Below, piece after piece: positions 3,564 to 64,000 of a stretch of 64,000 nucleotides of DNA; positions within the stretch are counted from its first letter, which is position 1; every line of letters starts with the position of its first letter. The position numbers and the translations under genes are program-made. Source of the stretch: Branchiostoma floridae (Eukaryota; Chordata; Leptocardii; Amphioxiformes; Branchiostomatidae); assembly GCF_000003815.2 (NCBI RefSeq), contig NC_049996.1, forward strand, positions 9,186,359-9,250,358. The letters are read 5' to 3'. The notes below the pieces were generated by a model. The model saw only the letters and a list, made by a program, of their open reading frames with translations, ran no database searches and had not been told where the DNA came from.

Positions 3564-18776
<15,213 letters not shown>

Positions 18777-22773: not shown

Positions 22774-25054
22774 TCATTGCTGTCTGCAGTGCGGGTTCAT
22801 GTGACGTCGTCGCTCCATGTTGACCAGCCGGATGACCTGGTGCAGGACCCGGATGTACTTTAGGATCTTCTCGTCTGACGTCAGACGTGCCGGAGATGTC
22901 TGAGGAAAAGAAGTTGTAAAATCCATGAATCTCTTTTCCTAAATATTTCATTAACTTCAGTTAGAGTGGATACGCAGAACAGCAACCTTTTTGACACAAT
23001 CAAAACAATATTTCCAACTCTTCACCAGTTAGTAGACCTCCAAAACAAAAATCACGTAATCCACCCATCAAACTAATCATTAAAGACGTGGGACTTTTCA
23101 TCAGCAACTGCCTCCAAAGAAGAAGTCAAACCTCCCAGTAAAGAATGTAGAATCATGCATATAGATGGCTGTATAGAATAGACACTTGTAACTTTTTACT
23201 CTCTGTACCCTTGCAATTAGCCTACGGGCATGGATTTAATCAGATAATAAATCGGAATTAATTATTTCATGTTTTAAGAAATGGAAAGACCCGGTCCTCA
23301 CCTCTAACCTGACTTCTCTGAGGCGGCCTAGGATCCCAGTGGTGACGTCTAAACAGTGGCAGTTCTCTTCCGCGCGGTTTCTGTACAGCCGAATCTGTCA
23401 AAACAAGAAGAAGAAACATCAGTCACAGCGTCGAGTTAAGTGTATATAAGAGGCAGACTTACAAACCATTCTTGCGGTTTCTGTACAGGAGAATCTGCCA
23501 AAACAACAACAAGAAAACGTCAGCTATAGCGTCAAGGTAAATATGTATCAAGGAACGGGATTTTACAAATTAAACATACGTTACCACCGTACTTTTTTCA
23601 TAAAAAGAAGAAGAAAAAAGTAAATCTCTAGGCACTGCATCATTTTTTCTTGCATGAGGTCAGTTTCACGGTACATTACTCGTCAATTTCATTTCCACTC
23701 ATGAAGGATGCTGAGTTGAATTGGAAACGTTTGTAATTATAAAACATTTGTCCATTGGTTTACTAGTAGATTTGATTGAAACACAAGTGTTATAGTTGCT
23801 TTTTGGATGTGCAACCTAACGTTAAAAACGCTGCGCTCACTTTGGCCGGCGTTGAAATCAGAACAATGTTGCTTTCTTTACAAGGTATATAAGTGTAAAT
23901 CCTGCTATGGGAATCACATTTTGTGGTCTTAAATAGGATCATACCTTGAACTGTTATTTAAAAGAAAAGTAACTGACTAGAACGTACCGTGTTGTTCATG
24001 GTCGTGAGAAGCTCGTCCATGGCGGCCAACATCCGGGTTCTGTTTCGCGCGACGTCGACCGGTAGAAGGGCGGGGTTCTCGTTCAGCTCCTCCGTCATCA
24101 GGCCGACTGAGATGGTGTACAGCAGGTTGATGCGTTCCAGGGGCTGCCCAGGAAAACAAACGGCAAATACGTTATTTCACCGTTTACTTCAAAGTCTTCA
24201 GAAGCTCTGCTTCGAAAGCATTTTGGAACTCAAAAATTGTTTCCAAAATAAGCAACGAATTCGAACTACTAAGGTCTACTATTCATTCATATTTCGACCT
24301 GCAAATGAAAAATGGTCAAAACGTTGCCCGGTGTTAATAGTACGTGCACAAATAGAAATGCTGTCAAAACGTTTAATATATTTATCTCAAATAAAAATCC
24401 ACTGAAACATATTGAGCTCTACACAAAGGGAAAACATAGATTTTGTTCCATTCTCATTCATTCATTTGTTTTATCAACTTGAGCTTTTGACGTACAGGCA
24501 GGGAGACCAAAGTTATCTTTGTACCACCGCAGCACTTTCTATCAACGTTTCATGGAGTCCTGCTTTTTGATTTTATCCTGTGCGAAATTATTCAATACAA
24601 AAAAATGTCTCACCGTTAACGTAGGATCCCCCAACTCTTCTCTGATTGCGACGACTTCGACATTCAACAAATCCCAGTCCACCACGTCTGCGGGAAATCT
24701 CAGTTGCTGAAAAACATAATTTAAAATATCAAAACTGGAATAAAATTCTTAGTTATACAAGCGTCTTTATGATTTACGAATATAGTAGAAATTCCACTAG
24801 ATCAATTGTTGAGTTCTTACCGCGTATCCCTCCAGTCTTTGTGTGGCCAGCTGAGTCTGAGTTTCCAGGGCAGAGTCGTAGGAACAGTAGAGAATTCTGT
24901 CTGCTCGGTGTTCGTGTCCGCTCGCGATGTGCCGCCGAATTCTCCCGACGATCAGACCTCCGTCCACCATCACCGACGGGCCCAGGACCACCAACAAGGC
25001 TAGCGCTACTTGGAGAACGACGCTCTTTGTCTCGCTAGTCGTCTGGAACACCAT
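22774..25054 (-). CDS. Secreted helix-rich protein, candidate IL-6/CNTF-type cytokine
   Basis: Five exons, every intron in phase 0: 25054-24821, 24706-24614, 24143-23988, 23394-23302, 22899-22774 (TGA). They encode 233 residues. A hydrophobic stretch (12-36, SVVLQVALALLVVLG) is a likely signal peptide or anchor. Amphipathic helices are predicted at about 54-78, 110-131, 140-170 and 199-225, with a long A-B loop (79-109), short B-C loop and long C-D loop: the up-up-down-down layout of long-chain class I cytokines. Helix B (LTPLERINLLYTISVGLMTE) and helix D (SDEKILKYIRVLHQVIRLV) resemble CNTF/CLCF1 in pattern. N-glycosylation sites: N143 (NRT), N159 (NNT). Cysteines: 57, 173, 175, 230. The family call is inference; another helical secreted protein is possible. 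The gene structure itself is strong. Confidence 0.75.
23374..23543 (-). repeat. 100-bp-offset duplication of exon 4 acceptor region
   Basis: The acceptor and first ~20 bases of exon 23394-23302 (plus-strand words GCGGTTTCTGTACAG and GAATCTG) recur exactly 100 bp upstream in the gene (acceptor at 23495-23496), together with the adjacent AAAACAA-rich intron and CAGCGTC words. The duplicate reads ILLYRNRKNGL then stop, so it is a decoy exon start. The arrangement parallels the PH-exon decoys at 6525-6792. Confidence 0.75.
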
Positions 25055-37904: not shown

Positions 37905-38305
37905 CCTGTTAGACATCATCATCATCATCATGGGTTACCCCCATATAACCCCGCAAGGGGCAAAGTAGGGGGGGAGCTGAGGTCCCGGGTTAGGGCGGGC
38001 AGCCCTCCTGCCTGGCGCGGAAGCTCTCAACTGTGGGAGCGCTTACTACCGCGCCAGGCAGGGAATTCCACTCCGGAATTGTTCTAGGAAAATATGAGTA
38101 CTTGTATGTGTCTGTTCTTGCAAAGATTGGTTTGTACTTATGTTGATGGCTGCCTCGGGTTCGCCCTTGGGTCGGAATCATTAGGTTCTGTGTGTCTATG
38201 TTAATCTTGTTGTTAACTAACTTATAAAAGAAGGTGAGGCGGGCGTTCCTCCTCCTTTCGGAGAGAGGACGCCACTGCAGGTCATTGAGCATTTGTGTCA
38301 CGCTG
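37905..38305 (-). mobile_element. 5'-truncated LINE, 3' end with (GAT)n tail
   Basis: The minus-strand frame 38301-37990 ends a reverse-transcriptase protein: MLNDLQWRPLSERRRNARLT, FFYKLVNN, FPRTIPEWNSLPGAVVSAPT and VESFRARQ, the characteristic C-terminus of CR1/L2/Jockey-type LINE ORF2 proteins. A short 3' UTR and a (GAT)n tail (37917-37931) follow. The RT and endonuclease parts are missing, as in usual 5' truncation. Confidence 0.75.
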
Positions 38306-38309
38306 CTAG

Positions 38310-39870
38310 TCTGACAGGACAGGTAGCAGAGGTTGGTGTCTTAAATCAGTCTTACCTGCCTGGTACAGATGTCAGTTCAGGACTCATCCACTGAAGAATA
38401 CAACTAAATTATAAGTTGACAAAACATTGATGAAAAAAAAAAACCTAGACTACACATGTCCGGGTGCCTAGATTTTATTCAGACATTCCATAGGCCTGGC
38501 CCCACATCACAGTAACTTGTTGGTCCAAGACAATTGATGCTGATTGGGATCATAAATATGGACTTTGAAATTCAATTCACAGGCTGTAAGTTGTAACGGG
38601 GGCCGCCCTAAGACGGTCCCCGTCGTAAGACGGTACGGATTTTTTGCTGATCTTATTATCCATAAGTACACCGTGTTTGTTGCCACTGACTATGCTAATT
38701 ACAAAGGTAAATAAACCGAGTCCATGCACACAGCTTTAATTTGTATTCCAAGTATACTTTAACATATTTACTTCATGTTTTTTTAAGAGCAGAATTCTAA
38801 AAGTAATGTTGACAGTGCTGAATCACTGCGGTCACCGGCCTCTGCGTATTGGCGGCTCGTGTCGCTAACTATACGAAGTTCAACTCATCCAAGCAGTCAC
38901 ACGACTGCCATGATACACATAAATAAAGCTCCATAAAACACTATGAATATGGGTCTTCAAATGTATGTTGAGTAGAAAAGCAACCAAAAGGAAGCGACAT
39001 AAACATTGCCACCATTGTACTCCCAAGGGAGTGTGGCCGTGAAGGTGGCAGACTAGAGAACGCTCCAAAGATTTATTTGACTGTAACAAATGATTCGTGC
39101 TGTCTATGAAAATAAGACTTGACAGAGAGATGTAGATGATATTTTCATATAATCAGACAGAGTTTTGTTGATGTTGGCGGTGTCGTTTTTTCGTAATGGT
39201 TTTTTTACTCGGGTATTCACAATCAGTGCATTCAGCCCATTGCCCGTAAAACATCAGCTGGATTGTTCTAGGTACAGCCTTCCTCATGTGAGACAAGAAG
39301 TACATACAGTCACGATTTTACTGTCAAAAGAAAGCTAAAATATCATACTATTGATTTTTTTCTGTGTACTTAGATTTACCACTTACTTCTGAAGAGAGCA
39401 AAATATAAAAAAAGCGTACCGACTTAGGCACACTGTCCAGCGTAGCACAAAATTGGAAGGTTATATACACGAAATTGTCTATCAGTGTTTGCCGCTTGTA
39501 ACACGCAGCGCGAAAGGTTCATGAACCACATGAATGCATTTCTTATTCAAGTATGTTGTTCAAATCTATGAGTAAAAATTCAGTCATCAAAATTTGACCA
39601 CTCTCAGGCACTAGCGATGGAGCGCCATGAGTTTGAGCGCAAGAAAAAGCGTACCGTGTTGGGGCACCTCCCGTTACAGGTAGGATGCAGCACAAATTCT
39701 TGACTGGTTGTATTATTATTATGCAAATCAATGTAACTCAGGTGTTCGTCTTATGCCATGCCACAAGGGTTAAGAAACTCGGTCATATTTCTGCGTTGTT
39801 ACTTAGTCTTTCAACGTATGTTTGAGCCAAAGATGCTAACAAGAATATAAAGATCAAAGTACGCCCTTCT
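38310..39870. other. Intergenic with small unclassified repeats
   Basis: Holds AAGACGGTCC / GTAAGACGGT words (38610-38640) and two direct AAAAAGCGTACCG boxes (39411 and 39642). Neither is enough to name an element. No gene is supported. Confidence 0.4.
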
Positions 39871-47017: not shown

Positions 47018-50000
47018 CACAAACACATTACACACAACTATACATACCTCCACAGAGTGAGATGTGCTGCTGCAGTTATTAAAAGGAAGATGAAAGAGAT
47101 TCCACAACCAATGATCGTGATGTACTTCAGTGCTTTAGACACAAAAGGGGAAGTCTGGAAAATAAAATGTACATGTATATCTACTGAACTTGCTTGTTGC
47201 AAGGAGGTTTTAGCAAGAGGATTGATAAAACCTCCTTGTTAATTGTACTTGTACTTAGCAGTTGTATTGCATACAAATTTGAAAAATAAGTTTGTTTCTT
47301 TGTATGAACTTCAAGATTAACGTTAGTTCATCTTTATCCGCAGGGTGACCAATATCCATTCATTAAGAATAGGGTCACATGAACTGTGTTTCAAATTACA
47401 ATATTTTGGAAATATTGCAGTTTCATATAACAACGGACACAGGTTACCCCCATGTTTGAAAATAATGCAGTTTGGGGTAACAACGGATATGGGTTACCCC
47501 GCGGATAAATGAAATTTACGTAAAAGGTAAATGACAACACACCTTGTGAAAGGGGCTCATAAGAAGTGCAAAGTTGGTGAGATGGTTGCAGAGGCAGTGT
47601 GTGTAACTGTCATTAGACATGGATGGATCAACAGTGCATCCTCTGTCTGTCCATTCCCTAGTAAGGAAAAAAAAACCTCGCACAGTCACTAATTGAAAAA
47701 CAGTCTGCTTTATGTCTGTAGTACACAATGAAAGACAAATTAAAGTGAAATGAAATATTCAGTGATAATAGTCTTCTCACACTGGATAAATTAATCTGAA
47801 CAGCTTGTAATCCAATTGTACATGAAGGTCTGATAGCCTTGATGTGTCCTGCTTTATCTTAGGACTGTATGTTTTGAACATACACATGTAGCTGTATGTT
47901 TTGAACATACACATGTAGCTGTATGTTTTGAACATACACATGTAGCTGTATGTTTTGAACATACACATGTAGCTGTATGTTTTGAACAAAGTCATACACA
48001 TGTAGCTGTATGTTTTGTATCTGTCAATCACCAACTCTTGTCGTCCAACAGTGTGCTATCAAGCAGGGAGCAAAGAAGGTTACCAACAGTGTCTATTATG
48101 GTATTAAGAAGATACACAGGGCTCGAAATAGCATCTGCATATGCAGGTTAGTGCAGGTAAAATTGGAGCTGTGCAGGTATTTCTGGTGTCTACCTGCACC
48201 TGGGTGTACTGGGTTTTATACATAAATGTCCTGTGATGTAGGTGTGTATGGATTGTTATTAGCTGCATTGATAAAGTATGAAAAAAATAGCAATGCATGG
48301 TTCCTGAACAATTTTAGTATGATTCATAATTCTTCAGAGTGGTGCAGGTAAAATTTGTCTGGTGCAGGTAATTTTCAATGTTACCTGCACCAGTGCAGGT
48401 ATGCAGAAAAAAAATATTTTGTGCCCTGATACAGTAGTATGTTAAGTGTACCTCTTTCCAAAGTCCCACCATGTGCAGGCTGTTTCATTAGGATCGTTCT
48501 GAAATATGGTGAAACAATCTAGATGAACATCGTAAACATTATTGACTTAAAAGTTTAAAAGTTGAACATATAACAAACAGTAATTGTCCCAATACAATTA
48601 ATGCCTGCTTCAAGGAAAACATCAAGATACAGATAACTAGCTACTTTTTCAAACTCAAAGTTTGACAAAGTTAAAACACCCACCGTAAGATGCCAGTGGC
48701 CAATTGACACATTCTGCTTGAAAGGTGTTACTGGCTGTGGGTCCACTCCAGCCGCTACAACTTGTGCTTGTATTGTAAAGCTGTGAACAAAGGAAAGCTT
48801 TTTAATGATTCCACATCTATGTGCATTCACTTTAACAGTGAAGGAATAAATGAATGAACTTTATTGCTCTACAGTACAATGTATGGCAAGTTTAACAAGA
48901 TCAAACATTATGATATGAGTTACTGTAAATGCAGAAACTTTCGCTGTGGTTTAATGTTCCCATTTTTTGCGGTGGCCGCTTCAGCGTGAACAACCACCGC
49001 GAACATTTTCCCATGGCAGTAAGTGGCCTTTTTCCCGCTACCGCCAAATTAAATCCCAGCGAACTTAGATGCATTTTACAGTATTGCTTCTTCCTGATGG
49101 TGACTTGCAGTGCAGATGTGTCGAATGGAAGGTTCAAACATTCTTACCCGTTGTACTTTACAGAAGTTATTGGAGGTAGACAGCTTTGCAGGTCCTCATA
49201 GGCAATGTAGTACACTGAGGACTCTTTCACTGGATGAAAAAAACAGGAAAAACAGAATTATCAATGATTGATAAGTTATAGTTGGCAAGGAAGTTAACAT
49301 GTAAACGTGTTATTGTGGACATCTTGGTCATCATATGGTCCAAAAGAAACAGTCTTCTTAGAGAATGTTTTTAAAATCAGACTTACTAATATATTCTGGT
49401 TGGAACTCTATAAGGTCCATAGTGAGTCTTACCTGAATCACCGGCACGAAGCACACCAATCGGAATGCTGATAGGAGATGGTTTTGTCCGACCTATGAAC
49501 TCTGATCTGTCTCTGGGAAAGTTAATATCATTTCTTGCCGAGACTGGAATTTTCTGGAACTCCATGTCTACAATTTGGAAAAAAGAAGATATGTAAGAGA
49601 TACGATTGATAAAGGAGTCTAGCTGCTTATCATAGACTTAAAGTATCTGTGTCTGTCTTTTTAGTCATTTAGTTTATTTACATAGTTTTTTCATAAAGTT
49701 TCTATTGCATCAAAAGGGAGATGAAAGGTACTAGTAACTGGTTGTGTGCAGAAATTTTTCCTTTTTAAGCAATATATAGTCCGTGTCTTCTACTTAAAAT
49801 GTATCTGTAACAGCTTTACTTTACAGATGGCCATTGTCAATAGATTTATCTTGATTATTTTCAACAAATGTGTTATTTGCATTGATGGTTGCTGAGTAGA
49901 CATGTTTGATACAAACTCACGTATATGTATGCTGTGGATTTCAGTGGTAAAAGTGCCATCTATAGGAAGGCTCCGTGCCAGAGATCGAGCTAATTTTTCA

Positions 50001-53000
50001 GCCTGCTCCATAACACAAGAGCAACCTCCGCAACTGTCACGGGTCAACTGGAAATAAAGAATACAATAACGTTATTGATATTAAGTACCTTCTAATGAAA
50101 CTTAGTGCTATAAAGTTAACAAGTTATTTGAAAATACAAGTAAAAAAAAGCACCACAAACAATTACAATTACCATGCTTGCAGTAGCCCAGACTTCCCTA
50201 TTTTTGGGTGCGATCATGTTGCTGAACACATTCACAACACTCTGTGAAAAAAATAGATAAAAGAGAAATATGACAAAAAGTATAAAAATGAATAGGAAAA
50301 AAATTCTTTAATTATGAATCACTTCATTTAACAGCGTAACTGATTTTCAAGCGAGCCCTTACAAAATCATAACATATCAGGATACAAAGGAAATTAATGA
50401 ACATTCACAATGATAACATAAAGTATGAAGTCTAAAATCACCAACCTGGGCATATCTTGTCAACCTTGTGTATGGCACTGTGTCGTTAGCCATTTCGAAT
50501 ACCCTGACGAGAGATGACGTGATGTTTGTATACAACTGCAGATCGTTGGCAGTTGGGATGTACCCCCCTGAAGAATTAGTGGCATCTTCCATGGCCTCGG
50601 CCAGCTGTCCCACCATGTCTACATCAGCAGGTGTTATGTGCTGCATTGTTTCCAGTTTGGTCAGAGTATCGTTGGCCTGGATGGACACAGTGAAAGATAC
50701 TTGAATCAGGAAGAGTCCAATATTACTGTTGCACTTCGTTTTAAAATCAAAGGACCATGTATTGTGTGATTTTGGTGCCAAAACTTTGAATTTTGAAATA
50801 TCCATTGAGATTGACATTTGTAACCTCTAATTCTGATTCTCAGTATATTTGGGTCATTTTCTCACATTTAAAGCTTTGATCACTCAGATACTACAATACA
50901 GACATGTACCTTTATTATAAAGGGTGTTTGGTTTTTCACAAGACCATATAGGGAAATGTAGAACGTATAACAAGACACTACTAACCATTCAATCAATTCA
51001 TTTCAAGCCTTGTCATTCTAATATATAATCTATCTCAATTTGGGTTTTTACCAATCAGAAAAGAAACTACATTTTTAAATAGGTTTGTTCAAAGTAAGGC
51101 CATTTGACCACTTCTAGGCAGTGAACTATTTGTTTTTGAGGGAAAACATTTGTGACAACATGACGATATGTTCAAATGTTCCAATTCAAAATTCAAAAGT
51201 ACCTTTTCCAACAGATCAGCTGCTTGATGGGAGTGGCATTCCGTCGTGTCTGGAGTTTGCCACCGACCGTCTCTGCACTCCCTCCTGATGATGCCTGCCA
51301 TGAAAGAAAGTAAAGTATGATCAAATCTACTGTGGACCCACCATCTGGAACAGTCTACCACCGGACATAAGCACTGTCCCAACTCTGGCTTCCTTTAAGA
51401 GACTCTTTAAATAATGGGAACGGCCAAATGAACGGACTTGAATCATGTAGCAGTATCTTTCTTTGTATGACAATGTAAAAATTGTGTACATAGATTTATA
51501 GGACTTATAAGGACTCTAAACGATGTAACTGTATCTCTGTTATATACTTTGTCTGACCCTTGCCTCTTCCCTCATGACCTCAATGAAAAGCGGCCTGCAG
51601 GCCGATTTGAGGTTTCATGAATAAATAAAGGTTCAAACAAACAAACAAATCTGTGCATGGCTATGGAACGTCTTTGCTGCCCCATTTATTCACTAGGTTT
51701 GGTTGTTTGTGAACTGTTCAAACCAGAGTACAATTATAGCTTCCCATAATGCAGGCATATTGATTGTCATGTAACTCGCATCACTTTGTGATACCTCATG
51801 AAACTAGAAGTTTAAGAATAAAAGAGTAGGGGTCAGCTCACAAAAATGTCTTTAAAAAAATATCATTTTGAGTTTTTAGTATTACTGGGCATAAACGAGC
51901 CGATGAAGACATTTTTATCTCAAATTCAACAATTACAATAACAACAACATAGTTAATAATAAGCATCATACCATGGTGACAGCTCCCAGCAAGTGTGATG
52001 ATCCCATTAGCCACTGTACGAGGCCACTCAAGACTCAGCTTATTGTCATTCTCACAGTAGGATACCGTTGATTGTGTAGCTGAAGGAAAAAAGGAATGTT
52101 CAACTTTGATATGTTCATAGATTAAAGAAAAGAAAGTGTTTTGTCAGGTGATTAAAATTGTACCTGTGTACACGTTTTAATGGAAGTGCAATAAAGTTTG
52201 GGCATACATTACATGACTTAAGACTAGTCGCATATTTGCCAACAAACTTTCCAAGCACCTTTAGATCGACAAAGGGTCTAACATGGGATGTGTATGTCAT
52301 TTTTCTTTACATGAAAAATATAAAAAGATTACTTGTTGTGTAGCCAGCATTAGTGGTTGTCACAATGACCACTGCTTCAGTTGTAGGTATTGCTGCTGTT
52401 GTTGTTGTTGTACCTGTTGGCTCACTAGCAACATCAGTTAGTGTTGACAGCCCTTGTCTGGAGTCTGTTGACCTCAAAGAAGTAGAAAATGGCGCTGACT
52501 GTTTGGTGGCACCCTCAATTGTAAGGAACGAAGAAGTTTTCAGAGTTGAAGCTGCAACCGTTGATGGTGCATGGGAGGTTGGACGCAGGGTTGATGGTTG
52601 GGTAGATCCAAGAGCAGTGGATAATTGCTCCAGAGGCACAGTTGTTGGAAATGACGATGTTGGAAATGTTTCCAGAACTCTAGTAAGAGTAGCTGTTGAA
52701 AACTGCCCTGTCGGTTTTGGAGTGGCTGATGTTGCAGTGGATCCTATGGATACAGTATGCTGTAGTTCACTTGACAATATCCTAGATGTAGTAGGATGTA
52801 CCGTAGGTGACATCGAAGCAACAGATGAGGTTGATACTTTCCTAACTTCTGTGGATGTATCTGTAGTTGGCTGTCTTGCTGATGCCCTTGTAGCTTTTCC
52901 ATGAGATATGGAGGTTGCTGTTGATGGTTTAGTACTTTGTAAGGATACAGTAACAGTACTTGTCGCCATTGACATCATTAACGGAGACGATGTTGTTCCT

Positions 53001-56000
53001 GACTTTGTAGAATATGATGCAGAGAAAGAGGAACTGGTTGGAGATGATGATGATGTTTGCACTCTTGATTGTGTTGTTGACAATGATGTTTGCACTCTTG
53101 ATTGAGTTGTTGACAATGATGTTTGTGCTCTTGATTGAGTTGTTGATGGCTTGACAGTAGTTGGGGTTCGTTTCCAAGGCTCTTCTGTGGACCTTACAGA
53201 GGATGCTGGGATCAGCAAGGTAGGTGAAACAAAGGTTGACCGTGCTAGAGATGACCCTATTGTTGTAGGGATTTCCTTTGTTGTTGAATTCATCAACGTC
53301 TCAATGCTTGTTTTTAAGAGAGTTGTTCTTTGTTCTATTGATTTTGTTGTCGATTTCATTGATTTTGTTGTTGGTTCCTTTGATTTTGTTGTTTGTTCCA
53401 TTGATTTTGTAGTTTGTTCCATTGATTTTGTTCTTTGTTCCATTAATTTTGTTGTTTGTTCCATTGATTTTGTTGTTGGTTCCATTGACTTTGTTGTTGG
53501 TTCCATTGACTTTGTTGTTGGTTCAATTGATGTTGTATTTGGTTTCATTGATGTTGTATTTGGAGACAATGTAGGCCCTTGTGTTGAAGGAATTTTCAGG
53601 AGGGTTGATAGTTTGTTTGTGCTTGTTGTTCCCATCAACGTAGAAGTTTCTTCTCTTATCAGAGATGCAGTGATCAGTGGTGTTACATTGGCTGAAGACA
53701 AGGAGGGGGCAGTTGATGTGGAAGGCGTCACCATTGTTGATGACATCCGTGTGGTTGGGTGAATAGTGGAAGGTTGTACATTTCTTTGAGAGGATGAAGA
53801 CGTTTGCACAGACGTCTGTCTTAAAACCGGAGAAGTAGCCTTTAAGCGAGGAGTTGTTGTTGCAGAAGAAGACATTGTTGGTGAAGATGCATCCCTGGTA
53901 GTGGATTTCATTGTTGAAGTCCCTGTAACATTTTCTACATTTGTAGTCTGATGACTTAACGTCTTTATTGGCAGTGATGATGTCACTGACATCTGAGTGT
54001 GTCTTGTTGACAAAGACAAAGCAGATGGCTTAGAGGACGCCTGAGTGGTTGATTCTGATGTTGAAAACTCAGAAGTGCTGCTGACCAATTGTTGGGTCGA
54101 CTTCTGTGTGGCTGAAATCCCAATGGTTCTTGTGGACAAAGCAATTTGTTGTGAATTTTTGGGCGAAGATTGCATTGGCGATGTTGGATGCAGAATGGCT
54201 GACCATGAAGTTACTGATGATGTCATCACATTAGCTGTGGAAGTCTCTGTAGTAGACTGGCCTTTCAATGGAGTTGTACTTTGTGCAGGGGACGAGACAA
54301 GCTGAGACGCTGAAGAGGAGGTCCTCCATTTAGTTGTTGATGGAGATGAAACAATAACTGACACTGTGGGATGTAATGTAGACAGAGTTGACCCTTCTGA
54401 GGATGATACACCTTCTGATGACAAAGTTTGTATTCCTGATTGGGTCATTGATGATGAAGGGCGTATAGAGGTAATTTTTTCCGTCAGTGGTTCCGAGGTA
54501 GACGTAATCACAGTCGTTGATGTAAGAGATGTCCGGGGTTCTGAAATCTTTGATGATTGTACAGTTGGCTTTCTGCTTGTTTTTGGGAAAGTTTCTGTTT
54601 GCTCTGTAGACTGCGCAGTTGAAGTTAGGGACAGTGCGAGAGTTGTGAGATGCTCTGGTGTTGATGAAGAAGCAATTGGCTGTGTTGTTAAGAGCATCTG
54701 TGCGGGCGATGACGTCAGGGTGGTTGGTGATGTTGCCATGGACATCTTGGTGGTTAGTTTGCTTGGGGTTGTACTTGTATATGCTGTGGATGTTAAGTCT
54801 TCTGTTGAAGATGTCATGACTGTTGTAGATGGAGTAGTGGTGGACACTGATGGTGTCTTAATGGAAGGCTGCATCTGTGTTATTAGGCGAGTAGTCGAAG
54901 GCTTAACATTTTCTGTTGAGATTGAAGTTGGTTTCACTGACGCCTGACTTATAACAGCGGAGGATGAAGTTCTTAAATCAGAGGAAGAGGTCTTTAAGTC
55001 TGCAAGAGAAGACAACACCATTGTAGAAGGAACTTCCATGGTCGTGGGCATCACTGTTGAAGCCCTTGCAGGATTCCCAGTTAGTTTGGTAGACACTGAC
55101 TTTGGCAATGATGACAATGATGAAGTCACAGATGTTGTTGGATGTCTTGAAGTGTTGCTGACTTGTTTCCTTGTTGTTTTTTGAGCGTCTGATATTACAG
55201 TGGAAGTTGTGTGTTCTTGCTGAGATGCTGTCTTCGATGAAGATTCCATGTGTGATGTAGAATTCACTACCGATGACATCACAGTCACAGGTGATGTTAA
55301 GTTGTTTGCTTTGGTTGTCTTTGCAGTTGTTTGGCCTGTTGCTTGCTTTGTTGTTTTTGCAGAGGATATGATTGCCTGAAATGTTGTAGGAGATGAAGGG
55401 GTGTTTGTTGGTGTTGTTGCTGAAGTCATTGTGCTCTCTGAGGATACTGTGCTCAGTTCAGGTGACTTTGTTGATAAAGACAAAGTGTCGAAAAGCATTG
55501 TTGATGACTCAGTATCATTCAGCATTGCGGTTGCAGGCTCTGCTGTTGTGCGTTCCAAGGTTGTTGGGCGTATGTGTGGCTCTGAGGCAGATGCAATCAA
55601 AGTTGTTGAACTTGGTGTTGAAGAGGATGCCTTTGTTGTTACATGTACAAGTTGTGTTGTCTCCATCCTTGATTTTGAAAAAGTTGTTGCTTTCACTGTA
55701 GACTGCATGTTTGGGAATGAAGAGGCTTCTCTTGTTGTGGCCTTTGTTGTTGAAGGACTGATAGCTAGAGTAGTTGCACTGTTTGTGGCTGGTGTACTTG
55801 GCATTGCCCTGGTAGTTTCCATAGATACTGAACTTTTCTTTGAAGATACTATTGTTGGAGACAGGGAAGTACCTAATTTTGATGTGTTAGAGGACGAAAC
55901 CAGAGTGTCTGTTGACATGGATGACATATTTGCCAAAAATAACGTTTGTGTGCTTGAAGGAGCAGTCTCTGATCTTGTATCTTCCGTAGAAACTGACGTT

Positions 56001-59000
56001 GGCTTCATGGATGTCTCTCTTAGAGCAGTGGAGGTTGTAGTCCTCAATTCAGGAGTTGCTGCTATGGTAGAAGGTACCACAGAGGTAGTCCTTGCAGTTT
56101 TTGTAGGGGTTTGGGTTTTAGTAGACGTTGTTAGATACTGCAATTTTGTTGTTGATGTAGTTGGTTGGCCTGTTGATTGCATTGTAGTCTGTGCAGACAA
56201 TGTAACTGATTGCGATGATGTAAGAAACAAGGAGGTTGTTGATTGTTCAGTAGTAGGTTCAGTAGTGGGTTCTGAAAGCTCCATTGTTGAGGATAATGCT
56301 AAAACTGGCGTTATGGAATGGGATGGAGACAAAGAGGAATCTGTTAAGGATGTTCTTTCAGCTGACGATGATTGTACTCTTGGTTCGATTGTTGTTGGTT
56401 CATAAGCCAGAGTTCTGTATATGGTTTCTACTGATGTACTCATTTTAGAGGATGTTGCGCTCTCTGTAGATGCAATTGAAGTTGTCTGTCTTTGAGATGA
56501 AGACAATTCCTTTGTTGTTGGACTTAAGGTGGTCCTGTCTGTTTCCATGATAGTGGTTGTTTGCTTTGTAGACAGTGTGATTACAGACTCAGAGGCTACT
56601 GGTGTTGTGGGATATTCTGGCATTGTAGATGTAGACACACTTGTTAAAGTTGAAGGCATCAATACAGAACTCGTAGACTCTGTTGTGGTTAATGACGGTC
56701 TTGTGGTTGAATGTGTTGTTGATTCTTTGGTACTTTTATGGACATTTGTAGTCAGCGTTGGTATGAGAAGGGTAGAGGACATCTTTGTGGTTGCAGTTGA
56801 TAGCTTGGTTGTTCTTACAACCCTTGAAGTTTGTTTCAATGTTGATTGCAAGATAGAAGTTGTTGACATCACAGATTGTGCTTTTGACACTGTAGGGATG
56901 GTTGTTGAAGTAAGCAACATTGACGTAAATGATTGGTTTATGGTCGTTTCAGCAGTTGAAGACCCAGTAGTATCTTTAAGGGTCGCTGCATTTGAGCCTG
57001 TTACTAACGGCAAAGAAGTTGGTGGCATCGTGGGATGCAGGGAGGATTCAATTGGTGAGGAAGAAGATTGCTCCTTTGATGTTGATGATACACGGGTCTT
57101 AGATTGGGTTGTAGTTGGTACAGTTGTATTCACTGCTGTTGAAAATGAGGGAGTTATTGTTGCTGCAATAGAGTAGGTTGGCACTGGAGATACTGAATAT
57201 GATGACACTGTCACCGCTGGTTTGCTTGGGGTAGCCCTCGTAGCTTCTGTGGACAGTATCGTTTTCTCTGAAGAAACTGCTTTGGAAAACAGAGAAGTGA
57301 ATGGCATTGACTGAGCAGTTGACAAAGAAGAGGCCTCCCTCAATATTGAAGATGTCGTCTCTGCTAAAGATGGTGTCTGAGTTGATGGGAAAAGAGATGA
57401 TGTTGTATCTACTTTGGACGTTGTAGTTGGTTTTGCAGACGTCTGTTCTCTAACTGAAGAAGATGTAGTTTTGGCATCAGTCAATACTGCTGTGGAAGAG
57501 ACCATTCCAGAACTCATCTTCAATGCAGTGGAATTTATCATTTGCACAAGACTTGTGGTCTGATCAGTTGACCTTGTTGATGATTGTGCTGGCATCAATG
57601 GAGTCTGAGGATGTCTTGAAGACAAAGAGAGAGAAGACTCTGAGGGAGATGATGAATGTGTAAGTTGCGTCAAGGAAGACACTGACTTTGGTGTTGATAC
57701 CAGAGAAGTGTTTACTAGACGTTCTGTGGTTATATTTGATGCCCTTGACAGCCCAGTCCTTGCAGTTGTAAAGCTCCATGGCAATGTAGATTGTACTGTA
57801 GATGACAAAGAACTGCTAGATGATGTGGAGTATTCCATACTTGCTGTGGATTTCTTTGTCGTTGTTTGGGCTGTAGAAGGAGTTTCAGTTTGAGCTTTAG
57901 TTGGAGTAGATGGAGTTTTAGTTTGTCCTGTGGTTGCCTTTGCTGTTGTTTGGACTGTAGAAGGAGTTTCAGTTTGAGTTTTAGTTGAAGTAGATGGAGT
58001 TTTAGTTTGTCCTTTGGATTCTTTTACTGTTGTTTGGACTGTAGATGGAGTTTCAGTTTGAGTTTGAGTAGATAGAGTTTTAGTTTGTCCAGAGGTTACG
58101 TTTGCTTGCGACACTTCAGGGAATGAAGAGGATGTTGTTGGAGCCATGGTACCACTTAGAGAGACTGTGCTTGGGTCCGAAGACTCTAGTAATGGAGATG
58201 TAGAGATACCTGGCATTGTAGTCTGTGATGGAGATGAAGAGGAACCAGCAAAAGATGTTATTTTTTTGGTCGCAGTAGTATCTAGGGTTGGTTTCCTTGT
58301 CCCTGTTATGGAACTCATAGAGGATGTTGATCTCACAGATTCTGGAGTAGATGTGATCAGTTGGGTCCACGTTTGAGATGATTTCAGTGTCGTAGGAGAT
58401 TTTGTACTTGCTAGTTGTACTGTTGAATTCATTCTTGTTCTTTCCAATGTTGCTGTTTGTTCTGAAGAATGTATGTTCGGGGATGGACTCATTGACAATG
58501 TTGTTGTCAAAGACTTCTTGGTTATGGTTTTGGCTCTTGATGACTTAGAGGTTTCTGAAAATGNNNNNNNNNNNNNNNNNNNNNNNNNNNNNNNNNNNNN
58601 NNNNNNNNNNNNNNNNNNNNNNNNNNNNNNNNNNNNNNNNNNNNNNNNNNNNNNNNNNNNNNNAGAAGATTTAAAAAATGAGGTGTTCAGTTGACATCAA
58701 TTCAAAAGAACATGCATAAAATAAAGGTAACAAATCATCTTTCAGTATGATTAAAACTTACCTATTGTGGATAATACCATTGTTGATGGTTGATGTGAAG
58801 GTAGAGAGGATGTGGGCAGTGTTTTCCGTTCAGATGATGCAGCCGAGTGAGAGACTGACGGCATTGGCTCAGTATTGGGCACCCGTTGTGGAATTGTCGC
58901 TGATTGAAATATCAATGGAGATGAAGTTACAGACATTGTGGTAGATGCTGGGGATGTAAGCCTAACAGGAGCTGATTTTGAAAATGTAACTTGTTGTGTA

Positions 59001-62000
59001 GGTGGTTTCTGTCTTACTGATATACTTACTGTGTCTCTATGTGTTGTAGATTTTTCTGAGGATGGGGATTGCATACTAGTTTGCACTATTGTGTTAGGTG
59101 ATGTCAAAAGGGAGGATCTAGCTGGCAATGTTATAGAAGTAGCTATATCAGTTGTTGGTTTTGAGGAAAGTCGCGATGCTAGAGGACTGACTTTTCTTTG
59201 AGATGAAGCAGTTGTTCCCCAAAATGTTGTTGATGATTTGTCAGTTGTTTGTGACAGCAATGGTTGACTTGTTTTCACCTTTGTTTCACTTGGTTCTAAA
59301 GATGTTGGGGATACAGAAAAAGCTTTTGCAGGTAATGCAGTAGTATGGGGACTATTTGGCAATGTTTTTGCCAAAGACGCTAATGTAGTTAATGTTTTGG
59401 AAGGCAGGTGTGGTGTTATAAAAGGTGTTCGGTATTCCTTCTCTGATATAGTTGCCATTGTTGGAAACGTTAATGCTCCACTGGTCCTTTTAGATGTTGA
59501 TGATATCTTTGAGGAGTGTGCTGCAGACACATATGGAGTCACAGATGGACTTTTATCAAGTAGGTCAAAGGGTGTAGTCTCAAGTGAATTAAATGTGTTA
59601 GATGTTGTTGTGTCTGACTGTGGAGATGTTGAAGATGTTAAGTCTTGCTCAAATGGCGTTGTTGAAAGTGTACTTAACAAGGTGGGCATTGTTGTGGTCA
59701 TCTGAGTTGACGTTCCTTCAGTTCCAATTCCTGTCCTAAAAGGTGTTGTCTCAAGTGTACTCAATGTGCTGGAATTTTTGTTGGCTTGTGAAAGCATTGA
59801 TGTTTGAAAATGTGTTGAATCCCGCTCCAAAGTTGATGACACAGGTGTAGGTACTGTAGTGGGCATTATAGTATGAGACTGTGTAAATCTTGTTTTTCCA
59901 GCCGTGGAATCTTGCTCCAAAGTCGATGACAGTGCTTTGATGGGCACTGTTGTGTAAGACTGTGTAAATGTTGTTTCTCCATCTGTGGAACCTTGCTCTA
60001 AAGATGTTGTTAGAGGTGTACTTAATGTGCTGGATATTGTACTGGTGGGCTCTATAAGCGTTGACATCTCTTGCATTGCTGAACTTTGCTCAAAACGTGT
60101 GGTCCGGAGTGATTTGATTGTGGTGAACTTTGTTGAGTCTGGGTGCGGGAATGTAAATGTTTCTGAAGGAGTTGAAACATGCTCAGATGAAGACACTGTG
60201 CCTGATGTGCTGGACGTAGACTCTTCCTCCAAAGAAGTTGTCAGCAATGTGAGTGATTTGCTGACTGTTGATATATCAGGCTGTGTAAACATTGATGTTT
60301 CTGGAGCTGTGGCGTGTTGAATAAAATCTGTTGTTACAAGATTACTCAATGGGCTGTTCATTGTGGTGTTGCCATGCGGGAGCACTGTTGTTCCTAGATC
60401 AGTTGTATCCTGCTTAAAGGTTGTTGTCATGGGTGAGCTAGTAGTTTTGAATGATGTTGTACCACCTCTTGGAAAAATTGAAGTTTCTGGAGCTGTAGAA
60501 CGTTGGTCTGAAGGTGCTGTTTGTGATGTGCTGATGAGAGCTGGCATGTCAGGATGTGGAGGTTCTGTTGTTTGCAAAGCTGTAGATATTTGCTCTGAAG
60601 GCATTGTCACAAGTGTTGGTAATGTCTTGGATTGCTGTGGAAATGTTGATGCTTCTTGGGTAGTTGAACGTTGCTCAACATCCGTTGTCATGAGTGAGCT
60701 ATCTTTGTGGTATGTAGTTCTTTCAGGTTGTGGCAATGTAGACGTTTTTGAAGCTCTTGAAACTTGTTCTGAAGACATTGTTTGAAGTCTACTCATTGTG
60801 ATGAGTGTAGACCCTTGCTCCAAAGGTGTCGTCACTAATGTATGTGATGCGCTTGATGCTGATGTATCTAACTGTGGGACCGTTGACGTTTCTGAAGAAT
60901 GTTGCTGACACGGTGTTGTCACAAGTAGACCAAGTGTGCTGGACATCATTGAGTTAGACTGTTTTAACTGTGTTTTTGATGTTGTAGCTTCTTGCTCTGA
61001 AGGTGTTGTCACAAGTAAAGTTGTCATGTGAGGTTGAGGGAGCATTGTTGTCTCTAGAGCTGCTGGACTTTGCTTTAATGTCATTGTCACAGGTGTAGTT
61101 AATGTGCTAGATGCTCTTGTGTCTGTTTGTGGAAATGTTGATGTTTCTTGGGGAGTTGAACTTTTCTCCAAAGTCATNNNNNNNNNNNNNNNNNNNNNNN
61201 NNNNNNNNNNNNNNNNNNNNNNNNNNNNNNNNNNNNNNNNNNNNNNNNNNNNNNNNNNNNNNNNNNNNNNNNNNNNNGGGGATTGTGGGACTTGATGTTT
61301 CCAGATGATTTGTGACAAGGGCACTTACTTTGCTGGAAGTTGTGTGTAAAGTTGTAGGTTCTTCATCAAACGATGACGTCAACTGTGAGCTTAATGTGCT
61401 AGATGGTGCTGTGTCTAGATGCGGTGGCCTTGATGCTTCTAAAACTGTTGAGCCTTGCTGAGAAGGCACTGTACTACGGGCAGTGTCAGATTGTGGAAAT
61501 GTTGTTTCCACAGTGTGGGAGATTTGCTCTAAAGCAGATGTTGTCACAAGTGCACTTGATTTGCTTGGCATTGCTGTGTCTTCTTCTATAACGGTAGAGT
61601 CATGCTCTAAAAGAGTCACAAGTGTTGAGTGTTGACGTTGCGATTTTGATGTTTCTGAAGCTGTTTCAGTAGACTCTCGCTCAAATGGGGTTGTCACAAG
61701 TGCCCTTAATGTACTGGAAGCTCTTGTGTATTGCTGTTGGGATTTTGATGTATCTGCAGCTGTAGACACTTGCATAAAAGGGGTTGTCAGAAGTGAATTC
61801 AATATGATACTAGCTGTTGTCTCTCGTTGGGATTTTGATGTTCCTGAAGCTGTAGAATCTTGCTTAAAAGTCGACAACACAGGTGTAGGTACTGTAGTGG
61901 ACGTTGTTGTTTGAGACTTAGGTAGTGAACTTATTGTTCTGGATGCTGTTGTCTCCTGTTGGTGGAGTTTTGATGTTTCTATAATAGTTGAAGAACTTTG

Positions 62001-64000
62001 CTCAAAAGGCATTGTTGCGAGTGTGCTCAATGTGTTGTCAGATGTGTCAGATTGTGCGAGTGCTGATGTTTCTTGAGAAGTTGATCCTGTCTTTAAAGTC
62101 TTTGAAATGAGTGAACTAAATGCATTAGATGTTATTCCGTCGGGTTGCGGTAGGGTAGATTTTTCTGCAGTTGTAGAATCTTGCTCCAAACTTGTTGTCA
62201 CAAGCATACTCAATGTATTGGGCACTGTTGGGTAGGCTTGTGGGGATGTTTCTAGAGCCATAGAAATATTCTCAAGAGGCATTGTACGAAAAGTACTTGA
62301 CACTTTTGTGTCAGGTTGGGGAAAGCTAGGATGTCTCTAAAGCTACAGAATCAAGTTCAGAAGGCTCTGTCCCTAGTGTTCCTAATATGCTGAAATTTGT
62401 TTTGTTGGTATATGACAAANNNNNNNNNNNNNNNNNNNNNNNNNNNNNNNNNNNNNNNNNNNNNNNNNNNNNNNNNNNNNNNNNNNNNNNNNNNNNNNNN
62501 NNNNNNNNNNNNNNNNNNNCCGTTGATTTCTGTACGTTAGTGTCCCTATAAGAGATGTCACTATTGGGGAGGACTTAGACGAGAAGATGGCCGTTTTTGT
62601 TGATAATGAATCTAAGGAGGATAGTCGAGTTGAAAACGATGTTGGTGTTGCTGGTGTTGTTGTTGGTTCTGCTGTTGTAGTTGTCCATGTCTGAGTCGTC
62701 AATGTCGATGTCAGTAACTGTCGTGTTACTGGTCTAGGTGTAGTTAAAGGTGTGGTTTGGGAAGCAGATGAGCTGGAAGTTGGAGATGTGGTGTGTGGAG
62801 GAGATGCGTTGGGGGTTGATGAAACCACAGTTGTTACAGTTGTAGGAAATTCTAGAGAAAACCAAAAAAATTTCAGGCCCAAAATTTGATTATAAGTTAA
62901 CACTGGATTGGAGTACATGTACATATAACAAACATCCTATGAGTATATAGTAGAGTGGACTAATAGGAAGAAGTTGTACGCAACAAAATTGGTTTGGTAG
63001 GCTGAATAAAGGTTCAGAAACTTGAACTATGAGGCTCCAAATGTCTTACTGAGGGATGACTGGTGTGATAGATGTTGGCTTGCTTAGGAATGAGTCCACT
63101 TACTATACAAAATGTCTATAACATCCTATGAGACTCAGTATACATTTCAAACAGACATACATGTACAGTAGTGAATGAAACGTGAGGTACAGTACTTACC
63201 ATCTGTCGATGATGTCATTGTTGTCAGCTTATCTGGCCAGGGAGAGGATGTTCTCTGTTTAGATGATGTGGTAGGTGGCAAACTTGTCACAGTTGAATGA
63301 GTAGCTGGTGTCCTTGTATTGGCTTTGGATGTCTGATGTTGAACTGTTGAGTGTTGAGACATATTGGAAGGCTCAGAAGAAGACAATGGGAAGCTGGTAG
63401 AGTCTGTCCTTGTTGGTTCAAAAGCTGATGATGATGGTAGCAAGTCAGCAGATGTGGTAGGAGTGGACTTTGCAGACCATTTTTTTGGTGATGCAGACGT
63501 ACTGGCAGATGGTGGCATTGGTGATGTCCATAGAAGGGATTTCTGTGTTTGCCTCGCAGAGGTTGAGTATTCTGTTGCAGATGATCTTGGCACACTTAAT
63601 GATGAAGTGGGTAATGGACTGGTTGCTTCTGTTGGCAACCTTGGTGTCCATTGGTGGGTAGACAAACCTGAAGTTGTTTCTGATGATGACTCAGTAGACC
63701 TTTGTTCTTTTGGAGCCGTAAATAAAGTTGATACTCTCAATGTTGTAAGGTTTGCCTCTGATGACGTGGTTTCTCTCCCTGAAGATGTTGACTGGAGGAC
63801 AGATTCTGTTTGCATCTTTGGCAATGTACTACTTGCAAAGTCAGTCTTTGATGTCTGAGTCCTAGAACTGGACAAGGCAGCAGTGGATGTAGACAAATTT
63901 AATTCTAGTGAAGCTGTAGACATTGGTTGTTGCTTTGTTGTGGATTCTGATGACACACTGCTATGATTTTTCCTATGAGTCGTCTGAAATGGATTGGATG
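41687..64000 (-). CDS. Giant mucin-like adhesion G-protein-coupled receptor, 5' end outside
   Basis: At least 23 exons: >=64000-63200, 62851-58762 (two N gaps, one frameshift), 58554-52333, 52079-51972, 51294-51203, 50676-50446, 50241-50173, 50047-49921, 49567-49433, 49223-49148, 48780-48684, 48498-48452, 47657-47543, 47154-47048, 46682-46571, 45943-45787, 45189-45024, 44523-44457, 44165-44080, 43597-43468, 43100-43059, 42805-42731, 42574-41687 (TAA). Exons from 52079 on add 975 residues in frame. Order: Ser/Thr-rich mucin region (over 3,500 residues), HRM, GAIN, GPS, 7TM, 295-residue tail. Such receptors self-cleave at the GPS and signal through a tethered agonist. Subfamily is unclear; the 7TM looks like group I (ADGRL/E-like). 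The ligand-binding domain, if any, would lie upstream. Confidence 0.9.
42731..47154 (-). CDS. Adhesion GPCR: seven-transmembrane region
   Basis: Nine exons. TM1 [20 protein letters not shown] (47154-47048); TM2 [17 protein letters not shown] (46682-46571); TM3 [20 protein letters not shown] with MLCEGIQLY (45943-45787); TM4 [15 protein letters not shown] and a long second extracellular loop (45189-45024); [19 protein letters not shown] into TM5 (44523-44457) and [14 protein letters not shown] (44165-44080); TM6 [19 protein letters not shown] and TM7 (43597-43468, [11 protein letters not shown] in 43100-43059). The WMLCEG motif, the TM3 Cys/ECL2 CWL pair and the FIFIFHCL motif are class B2 hallmarks. 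Frame and phases join throughout. Confidence 0.92.
43650..43805. repeat. Second copy of the minisatellite-bearing element
   Basis: CACTCACAGCCAAACATATC followed by TGTCCTTGGTGCTGAACAC is one unit of the 40150-40800 minisatellite. Its right flank (AAACCATGCATTG, AAGGCTTTGTTCC, TTTTTTTGCCTCTGAT) matches the right flank there. It lies in the intron after exon 43597-43468, upstream of it in genomic order. Confidence 0.75.
45500..45690 (-). mobile_element. tRNA-derived SINE
   Basis: On the minus strand it has an A box (TGGCCGAACGG, 45680-45670) and a B box (GGTTCGATCCC, 45637-45627) at tRNA-like spacing, with CCGGGTGGCGGCA downstream resembling a tRNA 3' half. The 5' acceptor arm (AGCCTTT) does not pair with TGGCGGC and one T-stem pair is mismatched, so it is a SINE head or tRNA pseudogene rather than a working tRNA. 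It lies in the intron between TM3 and TM4 exons. Confidence 0.65.
46251..46423. mobile_element. MITE, AGAGTGGACT family, copy 1
   Basis: It begins TAGAGTGGACTCATTCC and ends GGAATAAGTCCACTCCACTT, giving imperfect inverted ends. The inside (GGCTGAATAAAAGTTTGTAA, GGCTCCAGATGTCTTACTGA) matches the copy at 62951-63104. It is in an intron of the adhesion GPCR. Confidence 0.7.
46801..47038. repeat. Long (CA)n microsatellite
   Basis: About 240 bp of CA-rich simple sequence with GTGGAC and ATGTTCGAAC interruptions. It begins about 10 bp from the TM1 exon end (donor at 47047-47046). Open frames through it are artefacts. Confidence 0.95.
47200..47239. repeat. Perfect short palindrome (MITE end pair)
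   Basis: CAAGGAGGTTTTA, a 13-bp loop, then TAAAACCTCCTTG. Related words lie at 4277-4306 (AACAAGGAGGTTG...ATCCTCCTTG) and 44389 (ACAAGGAGGTTTA), so it is probably a collapsed family of hairpin elements. Confidence 0.6.
47543..48498 (-). CDS. Adhesion GPCR: GPS autoproteolysis motif
   Basis: Exons 48498-48452 and 47657-47543. The motif has CTWWDF, then CTVDPSM, and [14 protein letters not shown]: four Cys, the Trp pair and the HL^T cleavage tripeptide, all intact. Cleavage would fall between the Leu and Thr codons (47579/47578), leaving [12 protein letters not shown] as the tethered agonist at the N-terminus of the membrane fragment. Confidence 0.93.
47866..48017. repeat. 27-bp minisatellite
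   Basis: About five to six copies of TGTATGTTTTGAACATACAC followed by ATGTAGC. Each unit is itself nearly palindromic (GTATGTTTTGAACATAC). The penultimate copy carries a short insertion (AAAGTC). Confidence 0.85.
48117..48428. mobile_element. CAGGGCTC-family inverted-repeat element, copy 3
   Basis: It begins CAGGGCTCGAAATAGC and ends TATTTTGTGCCCTG. It is flanked by ATACA on both sides (48112-48116 and 48429-48433), a 5-bp direct repeat like that of copy 2. The inside is dense in GTGCAGGT / ACCTGCAC words in both orientations. Confidence 0.7.
48684..50676 (-). CDS. Adhesion GPCR: GAIN domain
   Basis: Exons 50676-50446, 50241-50173, 50047-49921, 49567-49433, 49223-49148 and 48780-48684. The first two are helical ([32 protein letters not shown]), as in GAIN subdomain A; the rest are strand-rich ([28 protein letters not shown]), as in subdomain B leading to the GPS. 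N-glycosylation sequons are frequent (NDT, NSS, NIT). A short Cys cluster SCGGCSC in exon 50047-49921 is unusual. Phases join without a break. Confidence 0.85.
51203..52079 (-). CDS. Adhesion GPCR: hormone-receptor motif (HRM)
   Basis: Exons 52079-51972 and 51294-51203. They read [16 protein letters not shown], then LAGSCHH | [12 protein letters not shown] and TPDTTEC. Cysteines, the WPRT core and the G-x-W near the end fit the HRM of adhesion and secretin-type GPCRs. A + strand LINE 3' end lies in the intron between the two exons. Confidence 0.85.
51320..51655 (+). mobile_element. 5'-truncated LINE, 3' end
   Basis: The + strand reads [20 protein letters not shown] followed by RLFK and stop, the typical C-terminus of CR1/Jockey-type ORF2, then a 3' UTR ending AATAAATAAAGG and (CAAA)n. 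It lies in the intron between the two HRM exons, antisense to the receptor gene. Confidence 0.75.
52333..58554 (-). CDS. Adhesion GPCR: 6.2-kb mucin-like exon
   Basis: One uninterrupted 6,222-bp exon (2,074 codons, phase 1 at both ends) encodes almost only Thr, Ser, Pro and small polar residues, which predicts dense O-glycosylation and an extended stalk. Local repeats are visible: a 7-residue SMEPTTK-type run (53320-53575), a 28-residue GQTKTPST / TQTETPST / VQTT unit in three copies (57866-58085) and [11 protein letters not shown] (53040-53150). The exon is preceded by CATTTTCAG next to an assembly gap and ended by a donor at 52332-52331. Long open frames on the opposite strand here (up to 334 codons, Val-rich) are mirror images of the Thr/Ser codons. 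Confidence 0.9.
58564..58663. other. Assembly gap (100 N)
   Basis: Exactly 100 N, so the true length is unknown. It lies in the intron between the two largest mucin exons, 8 bp from the acceptor of the 6.2-kb exon. Confidence 0.99.
58762..62851 (-). CDS. Adhesion GPCR: second mucin-like exon, gapped
   Basis: Read as one phase 1-1 exon from the acceptor at 62853-62852 to the donor at 58761-58760. It encodes degenerate ~40-residue repeats of the type [20 protein letters not shown] and contains two 100-N gaps of unknown true size (61178-61277, 62420-62519). One extra base near 62326 shifts the frame beside the second gap; an assembly or base-calling error is likely. Continuity across the gaps is inferred from the repeat style and matching end phases. 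Confidence 0.75.
61178..61277. other. Assembly gap (100 N)
   Basis: Exactly 100 N inside the second mucin exon. The frame differs on the two sides, as expected for an arbitrary gap size in repetitive coding DNA. Confidence 0.99.
62420..62519. other. Assembly gap (100 N)
   Basis: Exactly 100 N inside the second mucin exon, close to the apparent single-base frameshift near 62326. Confidence 0.99.
62951..63104. mobile_element. MITE, AGAGTGGACT family, copy 2
   Basis: It begins TAGAGTGGACTAATAGG and ends AATGAGTCCACTTACTA. The inside (GGCTGAATAAAGGTTCAG, GGCTCCAAATGTCTTACTGA) matches copy 1 at 46251-46423. It lies in the intron between the first two visible mucin exons. Confidence 0.7.
63200..64000 (-). 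CDS. Adhesion GPCR: first visible mucin-like exon, cut by window end
   Basis: Ser/Thr-rich frame open to the window edge, ending at a phase-1 donor (63199-63198, ACAGATG|GTAAGT). A possible acceptor CATTTCAG lies at 63984-63991, so the exon may begin at 63983 or extend beyond the window. Composition matches the following two mucin exons. Signal peptide and any adhesive domain are not in view. Confidence 0.75.

Follow-up and report, generated by a model that had tools for sequence, protein, structure and literature searches.

A five-exon amphioxus gene with class II-like architecture is a candidate helical cytokine

Which ligands engage the cytokine receptors of amphioxus? The genome of Branchiostoma floridae contains cytokine receptor domains of both class I and class II, yet GHl is the sole amphioxus helical ligand named among the matches listed in the open-licence literature (papers are cited here by PMC number). 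We analysed a candidate on the minus strand of a 64,000-nucleotide stretch of this genome (NC_049996.1, 9,186,359 to 9,250,358; hereafter the window, whose positions are used below): a five-exon gene running from 25054 to 22774. We favour, though tentatively, a fast-evolving, secreted helical-bundle cytokine that would act like class II (IL-10/interferon (IFN) type) and that is encoded by a gene of class II-like architecture. That the product is a secreted helical protein is probable, and that it is a helical cytokine is plausible; the strongest lead is the class II-like architecture, which is suggestive of class II membership but not decisive, and neither the sequence nor the low-confidence model amounts to proof of a cytokine. 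If the gene were confirmed as a ligand of class II architecture, the origin of the interferon/IL-10 system would become directly testable in one animal.

Is the gene real? Its five exons join in frame to give 233 codons and a stop, and all four introns (114, 470, 593 and 402 nt for introns 1 to 4) run from GT to AG and lie in phase 0, which bears out the structure drawn in an earlier note on this DNA, a note that named no strand. The coding exons, and one related element within intron 3, are as follows:

24821..25054, minus strand: coding exon 1, 78 residues; signal-like hydrophobic N-terminus, linker and predicted helix 58-78, with Cys57 just ahead of it
24614..24706, minus strand: coding exon 2, 31 residues; A-B segment, including a short helix predicted at 89-103; phase 0 at both ends
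23988..24143, minus strand: coding exon 3, 52 residues; predicted helix 110-129, most of predicted helix 137-169, sequons N143 and N159; phase 0 at both ends
23302..23394, minus strand: coding exon 4, 31 residues; end of the long helix, Cys-His-Cys at 173-175, predicted helix 173-193; phase 0 at both ends
22774..22899, minus strand: coding exon 5, 41 residues followed by the stop codon; final predicted helix 200-225, then Cys230 at the C-terminal end
23474..23516, minus strand: degenerate duplicate of the acceptor of exon 4 together with its opening codons, 88% identical over 43 nt to 23374-23416

Exon 1 opens in the start context AAAATGG and ends, in phase 0, on the donor GTAAGA. Exons are richer in G+C (0.51-0.60) than introns (0.25-0.36), and G+C at third codon positions (GC3) reaches 0.71 over the coding sequence. 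As background for how often such exons arise by chance, we scanned 11.7 kb of nearby minus-strand sequence for stop-free segments between AG and GT: 0 of 11464 positions gave one of the length of exon 1 and 0 of 11542 one of the length of exon 3, whereas 15 of 11605 gave one matching exons 2 and 4 in length, and 3 of 11575 one matching exon 5. Because of the G+C contrast between exons and introns and the rarity of exon-like stop-free segments, chance is a poor explanation of the exon chain, and we take the five-exon gene as real. No strong splice acceptor lies upstream of the ATG, where the best 18-nt pyrimidine content is 0.67, at -49; a separate signal-peptide exon would therefore not be needed.

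What would the gene encode? After a short polar start, a hydrophobic stretch at about residues 12-25, read by eye, suggests a signal peptide. There are two N-X-S/T sequons (N143 and N159) and only four cysteines (57, 173, 175 and 230), so that the hydrophobic N-terminus, the two glycosylation sequons and the scarcity of cysteine reported in the earlier note all stand. Two AlphaFold2 models, both single-sequence, were helical throughout, and the core model, which is of low confidence, has six helices, at 58-78, 89-103, 110-129, 137-169, 173-193 and 200-225. The helices of exon 3 would correspond to helices B and C of a class I cytokine, or to helices C and D of a class II cytokine.

The arrangement of exons is what points to class II. 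Five coding exons and four phase-0 introns are typical of genes of the IL-10 system (PMC12652433); teleost type I IFN genes have four phase-0 introns (PMC4929537), type III IFN genes have a phase-0 structure (PMC5723907), and for IL-10s the gene has five exons and four introns in every case reported, and six helices are conserved in the protein (PMC4338397). The window gene has this same layout of five coding exons and four phase-0 introns. Moreover, in the low-confidence model three introns (1, 2 and 4) lie no more than one residue from where a helix begins or ends, and intron 3 precedes the end of a helix by eight residues. The layout favours class II, suggestively and not decisively, and stands one step from IL-2-type class I genes and two from IL-6.

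The cysteines tell a similar story. In class II cytokines the first disulfide joins a site before the first helix to a site after the long helix, and LIF and OSM are similar. Cys57, before the first predicted helix, and Cys173/175, after the long one, match these class II positions; LIF and OSM likewise have cysteines where the first helix begins and where the third bundle helix ends, much as here.

A number of results weigh against this reading, and we gather them here. Firstly, four phase-0 introns are not rare by themselves: judging from general phase frequencies, we estimate that several in every hundred genes with five exons should have them. Secondly, the protein has no Pfam match up to E 10, a search of limited sensitivity, in that human CT-1 itself falls under the Pfam cut-offs. 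Thirdly, two PROSITE signature patterns, PS00520 for the IL-10 family and PS00252 for the interferons, are absent from the query, while PS00520 occurs in all six IL-10-family sequences of our panel and PS00252 in both IFN-alpha/beta sequences; with both signatures tested and absent, we do not file the gene as a member of the IL-10 or the IFN family. Fourthly, NUP107, a neighbour of IL22 and IFNG in human, lies on contig C4 (9 of 9 matches) and not on C18, the contig of the window, although this is one macrosynteny marker.

Profile comparisons were made with residues 47-228 as query, the first 22 residues being trimmed from panel members other than CNTF and CT-1. Against hidden Markov models (HMMs), with 500 shuffles per model, the query scored 2.1 bits with the class II model (nine sequences; 16 of 500 shuffles as high) and 1.4 bits with the gp130 model (five sequences; 41 of 500), and cytokines in reverse scored as much as 6.3 bits with the first of these models and 5.7 bits with the second. 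Shuffles scored as high in 189, 277 and 82 of 500 cases for the IL10fam, IFN and IL6type models; the gp130+IL6 model (eight sequences) gave the query no score, so that the 468 of 500 counted for its shuffles has no meaning. In hhalign, with 40 shuffles and five profiles, the query fell under the best shuffle on all five profiles and was outscored by its own reversal on all five. In alignments, reversed IL-20 and IL-19 outscored the real ones. Alignment, hmmsearch and hhalign scores, gp130-type and class II alike, are thus at noise. Homology to IL-19 and IL-20 was considered, since they too have a Cys-His-Cys close to where exon 4 begins, and was rejected: the triplets do come together in gapped alignments, and because reversed IL-19 and IL-20 score higher, we give the match no weight.

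The structure models are of low confidence. Mean predicted local distance difference test (pLDDT) scores were 44.6 for the whole protein and 55.3 for the core (residues 48-226; predicted template-modelling score (pTM) 0.52), too low for either model to settle what the fold is. Structure prediction, by which the earlier note proposed to recognize a helical cytokine, thus returned helices throughout, but Foldseek found no match to the core model at E<=0.001 in PDB or BFVD. No cytokine was among the matches listed from PDB (50 of 358), and none named as such among those listed from the viral BFVD (50 of 281), many of which are nameless; the best viral row had E 0.012, a template-modelling (TM) score of 0.38 and a root-mean-square deviation (rmsd) of 22. 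The matches are incoherent and for that reason are not used. Finally, hydrophobic moments did not exceed those of shuffles at p<0.1 in any of the six predicted helices (p, in order: 0.21, 0.97, 0.81, 0.22, 0.74 and 0.10). The earlier note had counted four amphipathic helix-like segments, where the low-confidence core model has six helices; since no helix exceeds its shuffled composition, the argument from amphipathicity falls away.

Could the protein be something else entirely? It is quite possible, though to our minds short of an even chance, that it is a secreted helical protein unrelated to cytokines, from a lineage-specific or undescribed family, whose exon-phase resemblance is coincidental. 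The lack of any sequence or structure match of weight and of amphipathicity above shuffles would fit such a protein, and when AlphaFold2 is run on a single sequence, a model made wholly of helices says little in favour of one fold over another; set against this, length, signal-like N-terminus, cysteine placement, and the number, phase and position of introns relative to the predicted helices jointly fit the template of a helical cytokine.

We think it unlikely that the gene encodes a class I helical cytokine, whether of the long-chain IL-6/G-CSF/CNTF/GH type or one of the amphioxus type-I-related genes, acting via class I receptors. The version of this proposal made in the earlier note is homology to CNTF and CLCF1. 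The motif FxxK, site III for LIFR, stands where the last helix begins in all five human LIFR-type cytokines of the panel (as a bare pattern it also turns up, at other places, in 6 of the 16 remaining panel sequences) and is absent from the query. With no Pfam match, no FxxK and alignment, HMM and hhalign comparisons at noise, a place in the CNTF/CLCF1 family is not supported and was rejected, and what survives of that interpretation is that a helical cytokine is plausible.

The known class I ligand of amphioxus, GHl, is a 208-residue, growth-hormone-like cytokine that has been published, as has the receptor GHRl (PMC9010856). The GHl qPCR primers P19 and P20 (PMC5376476, Table 1) have no match in the window with up to three mismatches and do not identify the window gene as GHl. 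They match nowhere in the whole genome either, so that GHl itself was not located, which makes this test a weak one across species. The available text of PMC9010856 also mentions several other type-I helical cytokine-related genes in the amphioxus genome, without names, and the window gene may therefore already have been seen. Neither it nor any amphioxus class II ligand appears among the matches listed in the open-licence literature, a set outside which most subscription papers fall.

An artefact or decayed gene, with an exon chain formed by chance or expression lost, is very improbable: the degenerate copy of the exon 4 acceptor in intron 3 and the missing canonical polyadenylation signal would suit it, and all five exons argue otherwise, with their frames open, their splice sites clean and their G+C in contrast to the introns. 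That copy is followed 32 nt on by a GT donor, and because 32 is not a multiple of three it would be a decayed or frame-breaking mini-exon. Past the stop, 1.47 kb contains no AATAAA and has an ATTAAA at +1288. It also holds two ATTTA, to which we attach no meaning. Likewise, 1500 nt upstream hold no kB, GAS (TTCN3GAA), ISRE, AP-1, TATA or other promoter motif of those sought, and two TTCN4GAA, again given no meaning.

Returning to the class II-like cytokine, are there receptors for it to bind? In the genome searched (513,431,437 bases, 431 contigs), the class II receptor domain PF01108 exceeds its cut-off at three of seven places, two on C12 and one on C3, one of the three containing two stops. 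PF09294 does so at one of three places, on C3, 5.2 kb from the PF01108 match and on the same strand. Neither domain has a match in 14 control genomes. The class I receptor domain PF09067 is over cut-off at two of six places, both on C7, and is also matched below cut-off in 2 of the 14 controls. The candidate receptor genes are:

C3:5626893-5632680, minus strand: candidate class II receptor gene, PF01108 and PF09294 close together
C12:5975560-5984824, plus strand: candidate class II receptor gene, PF01108 and PF09294 close together, PF09294 below cut-off
C7:20654588-20695763, minus strand: candidate class I receptor genes, two PF09067 matches within 41 kb

One class II receptor has been described in B. 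floridae (PMC3210801). We envisage a secreted protein of about 200 residues that would fold as a helical bundle of six-helix class II topology, with Cys57 possibly paired with Cys173 or Cys175. Outside the cell it would bridge two single-pass, JAK-coupled receptor chains, so that JAK kinases would activate STATs; the receptors would be of the kind found in the same genome, presumably class II. In the genome at E<=0.001 the five exons themselves are the sole matches to the protein, and the gene is single-copy at that threshold; the one further match at E<=10 (C5, E 4.1, 24% identity) is taken as chance. A stronger claim, that this is an invertebrate class II ligand, a single-copy representative of the ancestral stock of IL-10-type cytokines and interferons and a ligand of the amphioxus class II receptors, we regard as doubtful.

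The surroundings of the gene are of other kinds. Plus-strand exons of a Rho guanine nucleotide exchange factor (GEF) lie at about 5.5-13.4 kb (5500-13400), with RhoGEF, SOS1/NGEF-type PH and fn3 domains. The PH domain is split between two open frames, and its match in the second falls below cut-off; on our reading it may be Trio/Kalirin-like. On the minus strand, the region of about 47500-63000 carries a GPS motif (PF01825), upstream of which Ser/Thr-rich open frames of 2129, 857 and 409 residues span three 100-N gaps, probably an adhesion G-protein-coupled receptor with a mucin-like stalk. We know of neither a Rho GEF nor an adhesion receptor of this kind as a neighbour of a vertebrate helical cytokine. 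A minus-strand open frame at 37990-38340 looks, on our reading, like the final part of a reverse transcriptase from a retrotransposon and has no Pfam match.

How, then, does the gene compare with known helical cytokines? GHl is itself a helical cytokine of similar length. CNTF, CLCF1, CT-1, LIF and OSM are of the same size class, with the same all-helical prediction, but have two or three coding exons as against five here. Salmonid IL-2, of class I, has three phase-0 introns and exons that encode in order the signal peptide and helix A, the AB loop, helices B and C, and the large CD loop (PMC6070626); the window gene differs by one intron. As in IL6 (PMC7284502), there are five coding exons. 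An extra intron separates the third and fourth bundle helices relative to IL-6 and G-CSF. Human IL6 has exon lengths of 6/64/38/49/55 residues and intron phases 1-0-0-0, its first intron being in phase 1 and inside the signal peptide. The exon for helices B and C is thus similar, with 49 residues in IL6 and 52 here, whereas the phase pattern here is 0-0-0-0 and the first intron, which in IL-6 and G-CSF genes interrupts the signal peptide, follows the first helix.

The IL-10/IFN genes come closer. The cytokines they encode have six helices, as are predicted here by the low-confidence model. Exons 2 and 4 are longer in the window gene, and exon 3 contains no cysteine, as against the pair that IL-19 and IL-20 have in theirs. 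Human IL10 has exons of 55/20/51/22/30 residues, a sum that fits its 178-residue sequence, and the 78/31/52/31/41 of the window gene share its long-short-51-short-medium pattern.
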